Assembly: GCA_951812345.1 (NCBI GenBank)
Contig: OX638295.1
Location: 1,312,759-1,376,758 of the forward strand
Direction of reading: 5' to 3'
Source: Rhodothermales bacterium
Lineage (GTDB): Bacteria; Bacteroidota; Rhodothermia; Rhodothermales; VXPQ01
DNA length: 64,000 nucleotides
Position 1 is the first letter of the stretch. Each line of letters begins with the position of its first letter. Of this stretch, positions 1,366-31,686 are shown in pieces. The notes beneath the pieces were generated by a model, which was not told the origin of the DNA, did no database searches, and saw only the letters and a program-made list of their open reading frames with translations. A program made the position numbers and the translations under genes.

Positions 1366-1618
1366 GGATACTCTGACCAAAACCGCTTTGCTCAGCGCTT
1401 CACGTTCGTGCGTAAACGACATCATGGTTTCCTCGTTGCAATTTGCAAAAAACACTGAGGTTTCGGGCATCGCGGACGTGAAGCGCCCTTCGGGAGGCTG
1501 CGAGAAGCACGCTGGCCGCGTCATTCCTCATTGTGTGGGGCCTACCACACTGCTTCGTCATTCCTTGCCAGCCCACTTCTCACAACCTCTGAGATTTGCG
1601 GACTTAATCAGAGTATCC
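1366..1618 (+). mobile_element. 253-bp inverted-repeat element, copy A
   Basis: The copy begins GGATACTCTGACCAA and ends TTAATCAGAGTATCC, giving near-perfect 15-bp terminal inverted repeats. It is almost identical to the inner copy at 10386-10638, with the same length and only about half a dozen differences. A 96-nt hairpin lies at 1494-1589. One frame is open across the whole element (84 codons), but I do not regard it as a gene because other copies break it. Flanks are TTAA on the left and TTAG on the right, a 3/4 match for a 4-bp target duplication. It lies between the glycerate kinase gene and tRNA-Asp. Confidence 0.85.
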
Positions 1619-10347: not shown

Positions 10348-10690
10348 GGATACTCTGATCAAAACCGCTTCGTTCAGTGCTTTAAGGATACTCTGACCAA
10401 AACCGCTTCGCTCAGCGCTTCACGTTCGTGCGTAAACGACATCATGGTTCCCTCGTTGCAATTTGCGAAAAACACTGAGGTTTCGGGCATCGCGGATGTG
10501 AAGCGCCCTTCGGGAGGCTGCGAGAAGCACGCTGGCCGCGTCATTCCTCATTGTGTGGGGCCTACCACACTGCTTCGTCATTCCTTGCCAGCCCACTTCT
10601 CGCAACCTCTGAGCTTTGCGGACTTAATCAGAGTATCCTTCACGTTCGCAACGCGCCCTTCGGGGGGTTGTGGGCGTGATCGGAGTATCC
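10348..10690 (+). mobile_element. Split outer element carrying a nested copy (10386-10638)
   Basis: The left part (10348-10380, GGATACTCTGATCAAAACC...CAGTGCTT) and the right part (from about 10639, CACGTTCGCAACG...GATCGGAGTATCC, ending 10690) belong to one shorter family member. When the inner copy is removed, the two halves join as CAGTGCTT-CACGTTCG. That matches the uninterrupted sequence CAGCGCTTCACGTTCG of copy A. The outer copy lacks the long hairpin. Its flanks are ATAT and ATAA. Confidence 0.78.
10386..10638 (+). mobile_element. 253-bp inverted-repeat element, copy C (inner, nested)
   Basis: Full-length copy with ends GGATACTCTGACCAA and TTAATCAGAGTATCC. The hairpin at 10514-10609 has arms GAGGCTGCGAGAAG and CTTCTCGCAACCTC, which pair at 13 of 14 positions. 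Inner hairpins are GCTGGC/GCCAGC and GTGTGG/CCACAC. The same frame as in copy A is open from end to end. It sits inside another family member, so it arrived later. The right flank is TTCA and the left flank TTAA, a plausible diverged 4-bp duplication. Confidence 0.87.
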
Positions 10691-11587: not shown

Positions 11588-11815
11588 TTACGCCTCTGGC
11601 GTGAATCTGATTTCGTTCCGAGGGGGGGTGAACTCCATGTCGCCCTGCTTCGCGCGCATGCGCGTTGCTGCATGGTGTACGATGCGAAAGCTTCCCAGGC
11701 CGGGTACCTGTATGTCTTGGCGGGCCGCCAACGTTTCCCTGACGATTTCCGCCAGCGCATGTTCGACCTGATTCCGGGCATCGTTTTGAGACATGGCGGC
11801 GCTCCGGCTTACCAT
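11588..11815 (-). CDS. Small HU/IHF-like DNA-binding-fold protein
   Basis: A 75-aa protein (MVSRSAAMSQNDARN...RFTPEA). It shows the HU-type helical N terminus (QVEHALAEIVRETLAARQDIQVPGLGSF) followed by the beta arm region (GDMEFTPPRNEIRFTPEA). HU-family proteins are about 90 aa, so this one is short. The ATG at 11815 overlaps the stop codon of the upstream barrel gene (ATGGTAA), implying translational coupling. A second ATG at 11794 gives 68 aa. Its place next to a HU-like/SPOR membrane protein suggests an envelope partner rather than a chromosomal architectural protein, but that is inference. Confidence 0.7.
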   Translation of the reverse strand: MVSRSAAMSQNDARNQVEHALAEIVRETLAARQDIQVPGLGSFRIVHHAATRMRAKQGDMEFTPPRNEIRFTPEA

Positions 11816-13866
11816 TGCGTTCGGGCGCCGAGCGATATGCCGAACGGGGTCCGGTCGTAATGCTCCCAGCGCGCCGAACTTCCGGCAACGAGGTTGTCCA
11901 GGCGAAGCAATACCCCGATGCGCCGGGTGATCGGGTAGAGGGCGCTGACGTCTACGTCGAAGTAGCCGTCGAGTTTGTGCGCCCCCCCGGCGGTAACGTG
12001 CCGCGCGCCCTCGTAGTCCAGCGTGGTTTGCAGGAAGCCCCTGCCATTTCGGAATGACCACGAAAGGCCGCCGCGTCCCGTAACCGGACCGAAATAGGGA
12101 ATATCCGTGTCGTCTTCCTTCAGTTGCCCGTTCCGGAACGTGAGTCCTGCGGCGATGCTCAATCCTGCCGGAAGATGGACGGACAGGTCTCCGCCTGCGT
12201 AGGCAATGGTTGCCGCGGCATACCGGGCCGCTATCATGCCCTGGGCGTATCCGCGGGATTCGTCGATCCCGGCCGCCTCGAAATAGCGATAATTAGAAGC
12301 ATTGGCGTAGCCGCCATGCACGTCAATCCCGACTACGTTAATCTGCATGCGTCCGCCCACCCGCATGTCGAGGGTGTAGACGGTTGGTTGTACGGTCGGG
12401 CGATCCACGAGAAACGGATTTTCCCGGTACATGGACGCGGTGGAGCGATGTTCCGCGCGCGCATCGTTGCGTGCATAGAGTTGCAGCGCCGGCAACAGCC
12501 GGAAATCGAGGTGGACTTCCGGCGCGATCCAGGAAGAGGACGTCGAATCGTTGTCGGCAAATGTCATGAAGCGCATGCCTCCCATGGCGTGAAGCCGCGG
12601 GCCAACATGGATACGGGCTCCGGCCCCTGCGTCCAGCATCGAAACGCCGCTTGTTTCTTCCGTGTCGAAACCGAGTTGCGTGTAGCGTACGCCTCCCGCA
12701 AGTTCGCTGTCGTTCGTTACAGGAAGCGCCAGTTCGCTTTCCAGCACCCAGGCCGATTCGTTGCGGGCAAATGCGTCGTTTCCGGCTTCAGATTCCGGCC
12801 GGGTTGCATTCGTTTCCCAGGAATGTACGCTATAACGCGCGCGGGCGCTGAAATCCACGCGCGTCGTGGCGTTCGTTTTGATCCATATTGCGCCGCCGCC
12901 GCCTTGCGCTGTACGCAGCGGGGCCATCCGCAAGCCGAATATGCGTCCCCCGGCGCTCGGCAGGGCGCCATACATACGCCGGGCGTTCACAAGACCATCC
13001 AGATCCAGGCCGAATGAAACGGGTTTTGTCTTGTGTTGCAGACCGATCAGCGCCTCGAACGTATTGAAGGATGCCGAGGCGTCTACGAGCGTGTCGGCGG
13101 CGGCGTGTCCTTTGCTGCCCGCATAATCGAGGCGCGCATGGAACGCCGTATTGCGGGATAACGGCAACTCGGTGCGCAGCCGGATCACCCGCCCCAGATA
13201 CCGCCCGGCGGCGGCTTCCGCCATACCCCGGCCGGGTGCGCCGCTGCTGAGGGATGCTATGGGGTCCGGATCCAGAGCAGCCAGTGGGCTCTCTGGAAGA
13301 TCGGCGCTTTTCTGTTTATAGACTTCTGCATAAGGCCTCCGGTCCGCCGGAACGGAAGCTACGCGCGGCGGCGGGTTGAACCCGATCAGTGGTTGTCTCT
13401 GGAGCGATGGCAACGAGATATCCAGTCCCGTCCGGATTTCCACGACCCGCGGCGTAATATCGGGAAGTACAGGGGCTGGTTCTTCCGTATCCTGTGCATA
13501 GACGGGTAAGGCGGTACATACGCCTATTACCAGTGCGAGCAAACTGGTTGTGTATACGTGTCGCGCGGGGGATATGTTACGGAATGTGTCCGTATGCGTA
13601 CCCGCGCCCCCATGAACGCAGGTTCCACGGCGGGCGAAAAGCCGCCCGTATATGTCGGAGAAGCGTATATAGGATACTCTGATTAAGTCCGCAAAGCTCA
13701 GAGGCTGAGAGGAGTGCGCTGGCAAGGAATGACGAAGCAGTGTGGCCGGCCCCACACAATGAGCAATGACGCAGCCAGCGTGCTCCTCTCTGCCTCCCGA
13801 AGGGCGCGTCACATCCGCACTGCCCCTAATCCGCAGCGTTTCCGCTAATTTCAACGATGGAATCAT
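11809..13866 (-). CDS. Outer-membrane beta-barrel protein; N terminus runs into repeat copy D
   Basis: The mature protein (from QDTEEPAPVLPDITPRVVEIR onward) is about 580 aa with many amphipathic strands, ending in SLGARTQW. It looks like a TonB-receptor-type or related barrel without a clear plug domain. A hydrophobic signal segment (TSLLALVIGVCTALPVYAQ) precedes it but has no in-frame ATG or GTG. The only in-frame ATG (13866) lies inside repeat copy D, so the first 65 or so residues are repeat-encoded. An out-of-frame ATG near 13613 could be the original start if one indel occurred. It is coupled to the downstream HU-like gene. Barrel call moderate; start unresolved. Confidence 0.65.
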   Translation of the reverse strand: MIPSLKLAETLRIRGSADVTRPSGGREEHAGCVIAHCVGPATLLRHSLPAHSSQPLSFADLIRVSYIRFSDIYGRLFARRGTCVHGGAGTHTDTFRNISPARHVYTTSLLALVIGVCTALPVYAQDTEEPAPVLPDITPRVVEIRTGLDISLPSLQRQPLIGFNPPPRVASVPADRRPYAEVYKQKSADLPESPLAALDPDPIASLSSGAPGRGMAEAAAGRYLGRVIRLRTELPLSRNTAFHARLDYAGSKGHAAADTLVDASASFNTFEALIGLQHKTKPVSFGLDLDGLVNARRMYGALPSAGGRIFGLRMAPLRTAQGGGGAIWIKTNATTRVDFSARARYSVHSWETNATRPESEAGNDAFARNESAWVLESELALPVTNDSELAGGVRYTQLGFDTEETSGVSMLDAGAGARIHVGPRLHAMGGMRFMTFADNDSTSSSWIAPEVHLDFRLLPALQLYARNDARAEHRSTASMYRENPFLVDRPTVQPTVYTLDMRVGGRMQINVVGIDVHGGYANASNYRYFEAAGIDESRGYAQGMIAARYAAATIAYAGGDLSVHLPAGLSIAAGLTFRNGQLKEDDTDIPYFGPVTGRGGLSWSFRNGRGFLQTTLDYEGARHVTAGGAHKLDGYFDVDVSALYPITRRIGVLLRLDNLVAGSSARWEHYDRTPFGISLGARTQW

Positions 13867-13924
13867 GATAACCTGTACTCGCGAACGTGACGTGCTGAGC
13901 GAAGTGGTTTTGATCAGAGTATCC
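13672..13924 (-). mobile_element. 253-bp inverted-repeat element, copy D
   Basis: Opposite orientation to copies A and C and again exactly 253 bp, with ends GGATACTCTGATTAA and TTTTGATCAGAGTATCC. The hairpin is at 13701-13796. In element orientation its arms are GAGGCAGAGAGGAG and CTCCTCTCAGCCTC, which differ from copy C by paired changes. One frame is open across it and continues into the barrel protein gene. Flanks are TATA and TAAT, a weak 2/4 match. It sits between the TPR gene and the barrel gene of the same transcriptional run. Confidence 0.86.
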
Positions 13925-13935
13925 TAATACAACGG

Positions 13936-16900
13936 TTAAAGCGTTCCTTTTTCCTGTTCAGCGACTGCCGCATGGGGGGTTCCTCCGAATTCGCTGATCA
14001 CAAGGTCATACATGCTGGCGGCTTCTCCCATCTCCCCAAGTGCGTAAAAGGTGCGCGCCTGTTCCAGATAGCCGCGAGCGACCCATTCGTTGAATCCGAG
14101 GAACAGCACAGGCAGGCGCCCGAACTCCTCCAGGGCCTGTTCAGCCTGTCCTGTTTCTCTCAATAGCACACCGAGACGATACAGTGCTTCTGCGCCTGTT
14201 TCATCCCGGCTGTTGCGTGCCACATGTCGGTACAGGGGTTCGGCATCCCCGTAGCGCCCGGCTTCCTGATGTACACGGGCAAGGCCAAGGTATGCCGGGT
14301 ACGTTTCCACGGCATCGGGTGCCGCATCGATGGCGTCTTGCAGTAATTGTTCCGCTTCTTCCGAACGATCCAATTGCAGCAGGGCCATACCCTGACCGTA
14401 TCTGGCTTCTGCTACAAGGCGCTGGTCCCCGTCGCTGTCGGATTCGAGATACCGAAAAACATCAAGTGCTTCCAGCGGGCGTTCGCTTTGCAGGTAGATG
14501 GCGCCAAGCCGCCGCGATGCGTCCGGAAAGCGTTCGCTGCCGGTGTATTCCTCTATAACCTGTACAAAATGGGGGATGGCCTCTTCAGGCTGGTCACGTT
14601 CTTCGAAGATCGTTCCGAGATAATAATGGGCCTCCGAGCGCAAGTATTCGCTGCTGCCTTGCTGGATAAAGTCAAGCAGCCCGGTGAGAGCTTCGTCCGT
14701 TTGCCCGCTTTGCAAGTTGATTTCGGCCAGCCGGAACCGGAGTTCATCGATGACCGGCGAATCCGGATTCTGCTCAGCAAATTCGTCGAGAAACGCCGCA
14801 GCCGCTTCTGTGTCGCCGGTGGAAAGCAGGGAAATCTGGATGCCGGCCGCAGCATCGGAAACGTATGTACTGCCGGCATACTCTTCGAGCACGACACGAT
14901 AGGCACTTACGGCCTCTTCGGCGCGTCCGGCATTGAACAGGGCATCCCCGATACCATACTGCGCTTTCGCAGCCAGCGGGTCCCTGGGCCAGGTTCTGAG
15001 CAGCGCGTTGTATTCCTCGATGGCCTGGTCGTAATCCTGATTCCTGAAGAAGAGATGCCCAAGGCTGTAGCGGGCTTCCTGGGCCCACTGACTGCCCGGA
15101 TGAAATTCCAGTAATTCCCGGAATGCGCTTACGGCTTCGTAGGCTTCACCCGCGTGGTCGAAGGCTTGTGCAATCTGGTACAGTGCGTAGTCGCCCCCCT
15201 GATTTCCAACGAGGCGGTACGTACGAATCGCATTTGTGTATTGCTTTAATGCATAGTGGCTATCAGCAAGGCGCAGAAGGGCATCCGTCCGATACGAAAC
15301 AAATCCATCTTCATCGGAGGTTCGGTGGCGGTCCAGGAATACCTGATACGCTTGCACTGCTTCTCCGTACTGGCTGCGGCGGAAATGTGTCCAGCCGAGT
15401 GCGTACCAGGCCGCCGTAACGTGTTTCCCTTCAGGAACGTCCTGGATGTACTGCGTGAAGAGTTCTTCCGCGCGGCCCATGTTATCCAGTTGATAGATGC
15501 TTTCGGCGGCCCAGAACAAGGCTTCCTGGCCACGGTCCGATCGGGGTGACTGGTCATGGATATCCAGGAATCCAAGCATTGCTTCCCGGTACGATGCGCT
15601 ACGGTACGATAGCCAGGCGCGCTGAAAGCGTACTTCTTCTCGCAGGCGTTCGGAAGCGGCGCCTGCATTGACGGCCCGGTCGAAATGGCTGAAGGCATCC
15701 TCGAAATTGCCCAGTGCGATGGCCGCATTGGCCCGGTAGTACGCTGCTTCTCCGGCAAGGTCGTGCACCGGCCAGGTTTCCTGCAGTACGCCAAAGACGC
15801 GATAGGCGTCGTCCCAGCGATGTTGCCGGTAATACAGGACAGCGAGTTCGAAATGGGCATGGGGCGCCAGTTCATGCTCCGGCCATTGCGACAAAAAGTT
15901 TTCAAGGAGCGCAATCGCGGCAAGGGGCTCGAGAGCAAGGTCCTGGTTGATTGCTTCGTAGTACGTGGCGCGGGCGGCCAGTTCGTCGTCGTGGTCGCTG
16001 CGGACTTCTGCGAATCGTTCGGCGGCCCACTGGTGTACGCCCTCGAAATAGTAATTCCATCCAAGGCCATAGATCGCACGCCGTTGGTAGGCGCTCCCGG
16101 GATAGCGCTCGAGGAAGCGCCGGTAGTGGACGATGGCCTGCTCGCTGTCGCGCAATTGATTGAGGGATTCCGCCTGCAGGAAGAGCGCACGTTCCCGCCC
16201 GGTTTCGTCCAGACCGCCGATCCGCCTTTCGATTTCGGACAATACCCGATCGTAATCACCGAGTTCATAGTACACTTCGGCCAGCGCCAGCCCGATATTC
16301 CGTACATGGGGCGATTCCGGATAGCGCGCGGCAAGAAGTTCAAGGGCCTCGGCGGCCTCGTCGTAGCGCGCTAGCCCGATTTGGGTATATCCGCTTGCAT
16401 ACAGGGCAACGGGGGCATACTCGGTTTCCCGGTACTCGTCTGCAGCCTGCTGAAAATACCCGAGGGCTTCTTCGTTCCGGTCAAGATACCGCGCCGAAGC
16501 CCCCATGCGGTACAGGGTTTTTGCTGCAATGTCCGGCTTTGGATTGTCCTCGAGCAGGTTCGAGAATACGCCAAGCGCCTGATCGTATTGCTCGCTCAGG
16601 TAGAAAAAGTTACCCAGAGCCAAACGGGATTTTGAAGCAAGGGGGTGCCCGGGGTATTCTATTTCCAGTCGTTCGAAGAGGGCGATCGCTTCGTCGTGAA
16701 ATCCGAGAGCCAGATGTGCTTCGGCTTCATAATACAGGGCGTCGATCGCATGGAGATGATCGGGATGACTCCTCCGGAAGCCGGAAAAGGCCTGGATCGC
16801 CTCGCGGTACAGATCCGTTGTGTACAGGGCGTGCGCCTCGACAAAGGTACGCTCTGCCCGCTCCGGGGCGGAACCGGGCGTATCCTGCCCCAATGCATCT

Positions 16901-16962
16901 CCCGCAGGCCCGGTACACAGGAAAAGAAGCGCCGTAACGAGGAGCGTCAGGAGATAACGCAT
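13936..16962 (-). CDS. Large periplasmic tetratricopeptide-repeat protein
   Basis: A 1008-aa exported protein with signal peptide MRYLLTLLVTALLFLC...GDALGQ. It is followed almost entirely by about 25 TPR-like helical pairs (for example YEAEAHLALGFHDEAIALFERLEIEYPGHPL and YGIGDALFNAGRAEEAVSAYRVVLEEY). The repeats are of the BamD/YbgF class, often found in envelope scaffolds. It heads a minus-strand run with a barrel, HU-like/SPOR proteins and exbBD. This suggests a scaffold in an energised envelope or division complex; the role is inferred from repeats and context. No catalytic motif is visible. Confidence 0.85.
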   Translation of the reverse strand: MRYLLTLLVTALLFLCTGPAGDALGQDTPGSAPERAERTFVEAHALYTTDLYREAIQAFSGFRRSHPDHLHAIDALYYEAEAHLALGFHDEAIALFERLEIEYPGHPLASKSRLALGNFFYLSEQYDQALGVFSNLLEDNPKPDIAAKTLYRMGASARYLDRNEEALGYFQQAADEYRETEYAPVALYASGYTQIGLARYDEAAEALELLAARYPESPHVRNIGLALAEVYYELGDYDRVLSEIERRIGGLDETGRERALFLQAESLNQLRDSEQAIVHYRRFLERYPGSAYQRRAIYGLGWNYYFEGVHQWAAERFAEVRSDHDDELAARATYYEAINQDLALEPLAAIALLENFLSQWPEHELAPHAHFELAVLYYRQHRWDDAYRVFGVLQETWPVHDLAGEAAYYRANAAIALGNFEDAFSHFDRAVNAGAASERLREEVRFQRAWLSYRSASYREAMLGFLDIHDQSPRSDRGQEALFWAAESIYQLDNMGRAEELFTQYIQDVPEGKHVTAAWYALGWTHFRRSQYGEAVQAYQVFLDRHRTSDEDGFVSYRTDALLRLADSHYALKQYTNAIRTYRLVGNQGGDYALYQIAQAFDHAGEAYEAVSAFRELLEFHPGSQWAQEARYSLGHLFFRNQDYDQAIEEYNALLRTWPRDPLAAKAQYGIGDALFNAGRAEEAVSAYRVVLEEYAGSTYVSDAAAGIQISLLSTGDTEAAAAFLDEFAEQNPDSPVIDELRFRLAEINLQSGQTDEALTGLLDFIQQGSSEYLRSEAHYYLGTIFEERDQPEEAIPHFVQVIEEYTGSERFPDASRRLGAIYLQSERPLEALDVFRYLESDSDGDQRLVAEARYGQGMALLQLDRSEEAEQLLQDAIDAAPDAVETYPAYLGLARVHQEAGRYGDAEPLYRHVARNSRDETGAEALYRLGVLLRETGQAEQALEEFGRLPVLFLGFNEWVARGYLEQARTFYALGEMGEAASMYDLVISEFGGTPHAAVAEQEKGTL

Positions 16963-20679: not shown

Positions 20680-20934
20680 GGATACTCTGATTAAATCCGC
20701 AAAGTTCAGAGGCTGAAAGGGGTGCGCTGGCAAGGAATGACGAAGCGATGTGGCAGGCCCCACATAATGAGGAATGACACGGCCAGCGTGCCCCTCTCTG
20801 CCTCCCGAAGGGCGCATCACGCCCGCCGACGCCCCGAATCTGCGGTGTTTCCCACTAATTTCAATGATGCAAATACAATATCTTTTACGCACGAGCGTGA
20901 AGCGCTGATCAAAGTGGATTTGATCAGAGTATCC
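20680..20934 (-). mobile_element. 255-bp inverted-repeat element, copy E
   Basis: Ends are GGATACTCTGATTAA and TTTGATCAGAGTATCC. The hairpin occupies 20709-20804 (96 nt). In element orientation its arms are GAGGCAGAGAGGGG and CCCCTTTCAGCCTC, and the tip is ATGTGG/CCACAT instead of GTGTGG/CCACAC. Both arms and tip therefore differ from copy C by compensating changes. It is two bases longer than A, C and D, which shifts the internal frame. Flanks are TCGA and TCTA (3/4). Confidence 0.86.
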
Positions 20935-24278: not shown

Positions 24279-24486
24279 CGGGAGTTGTTGATTTTTTGAA
24301 GGGGAGAAGGCCTTGCGTTTGCAGGGGCGGTTCGATTTCCAGGCGGGCGTACATCCGGGCAACTAATGAAAATAAGATATGGATATTACGCGGGACTCGG
24401 TATAGCACAGGATATAAGCAGTGCGCCGCTCCGCGCCGTATATTCTTCTCTGCGTCTACTTCCCCGGATTAATTTTTCAGTGCATC

Positions 24487-27128: not shown

Positions 27129-28209
27129 CCGGCGCAAACTCATCAGGGCGGTGGCGGCAGCGGCCGATGCCTGGACGGATCCCGATTACGATCCGAGGAC
27201 GGTCGCTGTGAAGGAGACGCTGGAAGCCCCCAACGCCTTTACGGAGGAGGCGGTGGCGTTTGCGGTGAACCAGCAGATGTCCCTGCTTACGGAAGAGGCG
27301 TTGGAGGCATGGATCGGGGGGCGAAGCGCCTCTTCTCCCTGCACGGTGGGCGTACTGAATGCAGGCAATATTCCGCTCGTGGGGTTGCAGGATTTTCTGG
27401 CGGTACTATTGACCGGGCATCGCTACCTCGGAAGCGTTTCGTCGAAGTCCCCGGCATTGTTGCCGGCCTTCGTTGCCGATCTTTGCCGGTTCGCACCGGA
27501 TATTGCAGCCAACTTCGCCCTCCTTCCCGAACTGTTGACCGGCGCCGATGCGCTTATCGCTACCGGTTCGGACGAAACGATCGCCTGGTTGCACGACGGG
27601 GCCCGGGACCTGGCGCCAGACGACGCACAGGACGAAACGACAGGCAAGGCGCACGACATTCCTCCGGTCCGCTGCCTGTTCCGGGGGCATTCCTTTGCGG
27701 TGGGCGTACTCGACGGCAAGGAGCGGGCCGATACCTACGAACGTCTTGCGGAAGACGTACTATTGCACGAGGGGTTCGGTTGCCGCAATGTCGCCGTGAT
27801 ATGGGCGCCTCGCGGCCATGCTCCGGATGGCCTGCTGGAGGCTATGGCGGGGTTCCGAGGGGTTTTCCCGGCGCACGGCAGGACAGCGGGGCGGCTTGCT
27901 ATGCAGCGGGCTTTACTGGAAGCGGTTGGCGCTTCTCACGCCTACGGAGAAGGGCTCGAATTTCTGGTCAGCCGGGGCGAACCGGAAGCCCAGTCGCCCG
28001 GTCATCTGCGCTGGGTCGAATACGATGATATTGCCGATGTCAATGACTGGGTGGGCAAACAGCCTGTGCAACTCATGGTCGCGAAGCCCAGGTTTCAAAA
28101 GCGGCTGGAGTTCGGGGGCTTGCTCCTTGTTCCCGGCGAAGCGCAGCGGCCCGCGCTCGATTGGCGACCCGACGGCATCGACACGGTGGATTTTCTGTCG
28201 GGCTTATGA
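27121..28209 (+). CDS. LuxC-like acyl-CoA/acyl-protein reductase
   Basis: A 362-aa protein of the acyl-CoA reductase (LuxC) family within the aldehyde dehydrogenase superfamily. It reduces activated fatty acyl groups to aldehydes with NADPH. Visible segments are VGVLNAGNIPLVGLQDFLAVLLTGH (nucleotide-binding region), LIATGSDETI, and FGCRNVAVIW with candidate nucleophile Cys221. ATG 27121 lies inside the last codons of the LuxE-like gene, implying translational coupling. No luxAB luciferase is present, so a role in lipid or pigment aldehyde formation is more likely than light emission; that is inference. Confidence 0.83.
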   Translation: MFDRRKLIRAVAAAADAWTDPDYDPRTVAVKETLEAPNAFTEEAVAFAVNQQMSLLTEEALEAWIGGRSASSPCTVGVLNAGNIPLVGLQDFLAVLLTGHRYLGSVSSKSPALLPAFVADLCRFAPDIAANFALLPELLTGADALIATGSDETIAWLHDGARDLAPDDAQDETTGKAHDIPPVRCLFRGHSFAVGVLDGKERADTYERLAEDVLLHEGFGCRNVAVIWAPRGHAPDGLLEAMAGFRGVFPAHGRTAGRLAMQRALLEAVGASHAYGEGLEFLVSRGEPEAQSPGHLRWVEYDDIADVNDWVGKQPVQLMVAKPRFQKRLEFGGLLLVPGEAQRPALDWRPDGIDTVDFLSGL

Positions 28210-28221
28210 AGAGGCGGATGG

Positions 28222-28488
28222 CTATCTCGTATCTGCCACCGCTCGTTCCACTTCCGGCATGATGTCCCCCCAGTCGGCCTCGGGGGTTTTTGTGACGGTC
28301 AGGAAGCGGGGCATAATGAAGACATTGACAATGCCCCCGATGCGAAACAGGCGTTTCCCCAAAGCGTGTCCGGCCGCTTCTTCCGCGGAATTAAATGATT
28401 CCATCCCTTCTGGAATGAATGTGCCCTTGCGGAGCGTACACTTGAGGCTGTTCGGATTCGGGGTGGGGGAAATGTCGAGTTGCGGCAT
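28222..28488 (-). CDS. Nfu/NifU N-terminal domain protein
   Basis: An 88-aa stand-alone Nfu_N domain. It shows the typical PTPNPNSLKC start, RKGTFIPEGMESFNSAEEAAGHALGKRLF and IGGIVNVFIMPRFLTVTK. In larger Nfu proteins this domain precedes the CXXC iron-sulfur scaffold domain, which is absent here. It may bind client proteins in Fe-S maturation, but its separate role is unknown. ATG 28488 is chosen because it begins the conserved motif. It is convergent with the LuxC-like gene, with 12 bp between the stops. Confidence 0.85.
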   Translation of the reverse strand: MPQLDISPTPNPNSLKCTLRKGTFIPEGMESFNSAEEAAGHALGKRLFRIGGIVNVFIMPRFLTVTKTPEADWGDIMPEVERAVADTR

Positions 28489-31444: not shown

Positions 31445-31686
31445 GGATACTCTGACCAAAACCGCTTCGCTCAGCGCGTCACGTTCGCGCGGATAGGACA
31501 TCATGATTCCATCGTTGAACATTGCGAATTCGAGGCGTTGCGGACATGACGCGCCCTTCGGGAGGCTGCGAGAAGCACGCTGGCTGCGTCATTCCTCATT
31601 ATGTGGGGCCTGCCACACTGCTTCGTCATTTCTTGCCAGCGCACTTCTCGCAACCTCTGAGCTTTGCGGACTTAATCAGAGTATCC
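31445..31686 (+). mobile_element. 242-bp inverted-repeat element, copy F
   Basis: Ends are GGATACTCTGACCAA and TTAATCAGAGTATCC, with the 96-nt hairpin at 31562-31657. The left half is about 11 bp shorter than in A, C and D. It is bounded by AATG on both sides (31441-31444 being the left one), a clean 4-bp target duplication. The right-hand AATG supplies the ATG start codon of ptsH, so any ptsH leader and promoter must be carried by this element or lie beyond it. Confidence 0.87.

Follow-up and report, generated by a model that had tools for sequence, protein, structure and literature searches.

An IS5-type MITE very probably closed the native start codon of an outer-membrane barrel gene in a Rhodothermales bacterium

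Prokaryotic MITEs are described in PMC10969869 as forming stable folds and lying mainly between genes, with in-frame fusions to coding sequences found chiefly among the Rickettsia palindromic elements. BrickBuilt of Porphyromonas gingivalis, according to PMC4596501, is a MITE that has IS5-family terminal repeats and no transposase inside, and PMC10969869 reports it as intergenic; for the Correia element of Neisseria the latter gives promoter and RNase III roles as demonstrated. Here we describe an element of this kind that lies at the very start of a gene for an exported protein.

The stretch of DNA that was analysed (the window; 64,000 nucleotides) belongs to a 2.82 Mb genome in a single contig, whose nearest named relative is OX638293.1 (Rhodothermales bacterium MAG). 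A preliminary description of it had observed that in the open reading frame of a barrel protein neither ATG nor GTG occurs from the signal segment up to an adjacent repeat, and that the open frame of the repeat reads straight into that segment; both observations hold in the sequence. The features relevant here are the following.

1366-1618, plus strand: further copy of the MITE; its flanks meet without the copy in G003
10348-10690, strand not given: another MITE, which encloses a full copy (10386-10638)
11809-13866, minus strand: barrel open reading frame of 685 aa, open from the repeat into the barrel with no stop between
11809-13542, minus strand: barrel gene, counted from TTG 13542 in the hydrophobic signal segment up to the stop; a plug-less, TonB-receptor-like barrel (dN/dS 0.18-0.21)
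13540-13542, minus strand: TTG in the hydrophobic segment, the first start-type codon downstream of the element and the second candidate start
13543-13671, minus strand: former N-terminal leader, 43 codons between the element and the hydrophobic segment, with no start codon
13672-13924, minus strand: IS5-type MITE of 253 bp, with inverted ends GGATACTCTGAT...ATCAGAGTATCC and a predicted three-armed fold
13864-13866, minus strand: ATG within the element that shares the barrel's frame and may serve as a substitute start
13930-13932, minus strand: TTG where the relatives have their ATG, followed by TAT and then by TAG at the element edge
13936-16962, minus strand: upstream TPR-repeat gene, whose stop lies 3 nt before the former barrel start
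20680-20934, minus strand: further copy of the MITE; the site is empty in G003 and G004
31445-31686, plus strand: further, shorter copy of the MITE (242 bp)

The barrel protein gives a weak Pfam match to the TonB receptor barrel (E 0.00014, under the curated cut-off). In its AlphaFold2 model (mean pLDDT 77.6) about 100 low-confidence residues precede the barrel, and a plug-like domain is not visible; among known structures it comes closest to BtuB and further TonB-dependent receptors (8-14% identity, TM about 0.6). A candidate signal-peptidase site, judged by eye, follows VYA; use of this site would keep anything encoded by the element out of the mature protein.

In the three relatives with the closest barrel genes (G003, G004 and G005) the ATG of the gene is found 3 nt past the TPR stop and the gap is empty, and in the more distant G001 and G002 an ATG lies in the same TPR-barrel junction. 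The window junction reads TAA CCG TTG TAT TAG, where the last letter is the first of the element's core; since TTG occupies the place of the relatives' ATG and is followed by TAT and then, at the element edge, by TAG, the native start is closed. Past the element the gene resumes at TAT ATA CGC in the relatives' frame, which places the insertion about two codons into the barrel gene. Alignments flanking the element end at adjoining bases in G003 and within about 10 bases in G004; an extra base blurs the exact target duplication at this site, and the insertion is known from one assembly. The comparison of N termini with orthologues that the preliminary description had proposed thus supports a loss of the normal start through the repeat. 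We conclude that a non-autonomous IS5-type MITE very probably inserted here and closed the native start, and that the barrel frame stayed intact, its protein probably being made from a substitute start. On this account the MITE inserted two codons into the gene, within a tight junction; the native start is shut, with TTG, TAT and TAG where the relatives begin; the barrel part remains an intact, conserved frame; the protein would still be made, from a substitute start; and signal peptidase would cleave off the element-encoded residues, leaving the mature barrel unaltered. With near relatives for comparison, the locus documents how mobile DNA can part a conserved gene from its start and yet spare the gene itself.

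The mature barrel has a dN/dS of 0.18-0.21 in all six pairs of four genomes. Of changes specific to the window genome, counted as nonsynonymous to synonymous, the leader has 13:1 and the mature part 25:37 (Fisher p = 0.0006 between the two; two of the 13 nonsynonymous leader changes share one codon adjoining the element), and the hydrophobic segment has 0:2, indicating that the leader was freed while the hydrophobic segment and the barrel stayed constrained. The same comparison in G003 gives 6:3 versus 27:35 (p = 0.29), and the leaders of G000 and G003, compared directly, do not differ significantly (p = 0.26). As read from these sequences, the leader's lost constraint fits an old start that is no longer used. 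The closed native start, the unconstrained leader on the window branch and the lack of a classical start outside the element would also be expected of a young pseudogene, whose expression ended with the insertion and whose decay has yet to show; we regard this as unlikely, because the frame is intact and the mature part (25:37) and hydrophobic segment (0:2) show ordinary constraint, though this constraint partly predates the insertion. Dating the insertion by the terminal branch (0.065) was attempted and dropped, because only one substitution of the window copy is rare among the other copies.

The TPR-barrel gap of G001 holds, just before the ATG, the palindrome AAGGATATCCTT (L035, G001:C28:95248-95259), which looks like the element's two ends joined together; the six genomes have this 12-mer at just two places, and controls gave 0. 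It may be the trace of an independent or ancestral insertion, perhaps left behind by a copy that was deleted almost completely. Together with the frequency of ATG codons 0-6 nt from a copy edge (18 of 54 frames), it would agree with an element that stood in the junction ancestrally and that the relatives lost, an ATG that followed it having been removed by a later change; this history is, however, improbable, for it requires several precise losses and no such footprint is present in G002, G003, G004 or G005. Hardly credible is the frameshift that the preliminary description had offered, a single-base event splitting an original ATG near 13613 from the barrel gene: an out-of-frame ATG does stand at 13613, but the same CATGG (as CATGGG or CATGGA) lies out of frame inside the longer N terminus of G003, G004 and G005 and hence is not the original start, the leader frame is open in all genomes compared, and the relatives start upstream, 3 nt past the TPR stop, where the element sits, which makes insertion the cause.

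If the native start was closed by insertion, translation has to begin elsewhere, or else little protein is made. The repeat contains five in-frame start codons (ATG 13866, TTG 13854, GTG 13812, GTG 13755 and TTG 13725), and none is found between the repeat edge (13672) and TTG 13542. The most likely substitute, which we favour tentatively, is ATG 13866, the very kind of start inside the element that had been envisaged. It would add 65 element codons, in agreement with the earlier estimate of about 65 residues before the signal, but 43 more follow, so that 108 residues would precede the hydrophobic segment. An extension of this length ahead of a signal segment is unusual, and the codon sits in the predicted stable fold. 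What brings ATG 13866 into frame is a one-base deletion in the window copy, which is not seen in 25 of the 29 nearest copies; in 10 of 100 copies, the window's included, the farthest in-frame ATG stands at this place, with 65 or 66 codons between it and the right end. That no stop interrupts the element argues only weakly for function (P = 0.07 at 6.5% decay, and more if decay is less), and no promoter-like site was found when this copy was searched for one. TTG 13542, 129 nt from the element and at the hydrophobic segment's base, is a more doubtful candidate, and a protein started there would have no basic n-region. It is unlikely that the barrel protein is now hardly made, and somewhat more unlikely that another non-ATG codon serves as the start.

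A fuller account, more tentative than the choice of codon, is that the element supplies both the start and a 65-codon leader following the one-base deletion, with the old start decayed and the old leader freed. If this is true, a structured non-coding MITE would have been co-opted as the 5' end of an exported protein. Should translation start there, the element-encoded residues precede the signal and therefore should be absent from the mature protein. The locus allows the replacement of a start codon in an exported protein to be put to the test. It is also a warning to annotators, as the 685-aa gene model has its start within mobile DNA.

The element itself is 253 bp long with 12-bp inverted ends, which differ from the ends of the Correia element, and has no transposase-sized frame within it. 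There are 42 matches to it in the genome (40 scored of 267 candidates) and at least 40 full copies; the 12-mer ends, allowing one mismatch or fewer, occur 188 and 212 times in this genome, against 1 and 1 for the reversed control. Among the 114 genomes examined it is found in all six of the genus and in none of the 108 others of the order. For comparisons among copies, 112 BLAST rows gave 101 full-length copies and, after removal of one exact duplicate (L063), a set of 100, which takes in orthologous copies. Exact 4-bp direct duplications flank 26 of these 100 (7.0 in shuffled pairings), and at empty sites the duplication lengths vary; the target duplication of IS5 is YTAR, about 4 bp. Complementarity of the two flanking bases exceeds expectation (92 versus 62.2 and 72 versus 38.7 in 100 copies). 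At L020 and L023, as at 10348-10690 in the window, a full copy is nested in another copy, at the same inner place.

A likely source of the ends was found in the same genome. The DDE_Tnp_1 domain occurs in four of the six genus genomes, at nine loci, and at three of these, all in the window's own genome, the MITE end lies 185-195 bp downstream of the domain; at the other six the end is absent even with up to two mismatches. One of the three, L147:1175-1840, is a 666-bp IS5-type relic that has the MITE's end on both sides and an internally deleted transposase. The relic pieces match DUF772 and DDE_Tnp_1, their identity to annotated IS5 family transposases reaches about 49%, and all three transposase relics are broken. 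Because these IS5-family relics carry the same ends, we assign the repeat to the IS5-type MITEs, and by their shared terminal repeat the relics point to the MITE's parent. Two other origins were considered and rejected: IS630/mariner, guessed from the TA at both ends (DDE_3 is present in none of the six genomes, and the flanks are often AA...TT), and REP/RAYT (Y1_Tnp transposase is present in none of the six). The MITE was not found in the phage or plasmid records searched, nor did viral contigs, searched with one exact 19-mer, give a match. In the literature searched we found no description of this MITE family, of MITEs in Rhodothermales or of an IS5-family MITE insertion affecting start or stop codons; as far as this search extends, the MITE is a new family of a known kind of element.

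The three arms of the predicted fold have a minimum free energy of -110.4 kcal/mol (z -5.1 versus 200 shuffles), and 20 of the 83 pairs vary on both sides (95 cells versus 46.9 shuffled, in 40 copies). When the partner is slid, pairing drops from 89% to at most 44%, a comparison that favours the fold because the structure was derived from one of the compared sequences; one of the five pairing measures is contrary (53 further pair types observed, 56.9 shuffled). Core lengths of the copies range from 239 to 257, indels among them do not stay in multiples of three, and only 22 of 100 copies are open for at least 76 codons in the frame leading into the barrel gene. The pairing evidence and the indels together indicate that the palindromic structure, not a reading frame, is conserved. 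At gathering score Rfam detected nothing in the window but two tRNAs; at the element it gave two weak matches below that score, and a known structured RNA family was rejected for it.

Placement was counted on the 40 own-genome copies only, namely the 40 scored of 267 candidates. None lies in a called gene; all are intergenic. Of the outward coding frames examined across the copies, 48 of 54 have a start codon within 60 nt, and 18 of 54 have an ATG within 6 nt of the element edge. Five of the six frames that have no start within 60 nt are antisense shadows of higher-scoring genes, and the remaining one is the barrel gene. L085 in G001 was considered as a second displaced gene and rejected, because its GTG start, which precedes the same point by 30-31 codons, is shared by five of five orthologues. 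Start displacement is a rare position for a MITE of a known kind. At L009, L010, L016 and L130 the last 11 to 62 nt of genes lie inside the element, which gives them short element-encoded C-terminal tails. The preliminary description had likened the repeat to the Rickettsia palindromic elements, but a family selected to insert peptides in frame into proteins is highly improbable here: the element is read through in frame at the barrel gene, yet 0 of 40 own-genome copies lie in genes despite a coding fraction of 0.89 in the window, and copy lengths vary off multiples of three, with structure and not frame conserved and the frame open in 22 of 100.

Several copies are shared between G000 and G003. 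The same-site pairs L004/L077, L006/L067, L010/L106, L012/L120 and L013/L119 are 98-100% identical, with flanks mostly near 90%; these pairs come from similarity-ranked lists, so that the sampling favours near-identical ones, and five 20-kb syntenic stretches together with the window contained no other convincing shared copy. Around the copy L002/L063 the two genomes agree at 96-100% per 50 bases over at least 1.4 kb (about 90% elsewhere), which we read as a possible recent exchange or mix-up. The syntenic G003 region holds, at 28041-28286, a copy that is absent from the window at 24382, and TAAGATA-like sequence on both sides of it suggests a longer duplication there.

Set against the known systems, the window MITE shares features with each. 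Like the Rickettsia palindromic elements it has an open frame able to join a host frame, but close to half of those elements are described as in-frame insertions inside genes (PMC10969869), whereas for the window MITE 0 of 40 copies lie within genes. With the Correia element, as portrayed there, it has in common a high copy number, a position often near gene starts and transcript hairpins (PMC10969869). The window relics resemble the IS5 family in their DDE_Tnp_1 and DUF772 transposase domains, which lie beside the MITE's terminal repeat; this genome, however, has only broken relics, and the MITE interior is unrelated to them. BrickBuilt is likewise short, non-autonomous and intergenic, with IS5-family ends and no internal transposase; it has 19 copies and an internal minisatellite, whereas the window MITE is present in at least 40 full copies, is predicted to fold into three arms and, in one copy, has closed the start of a gene.
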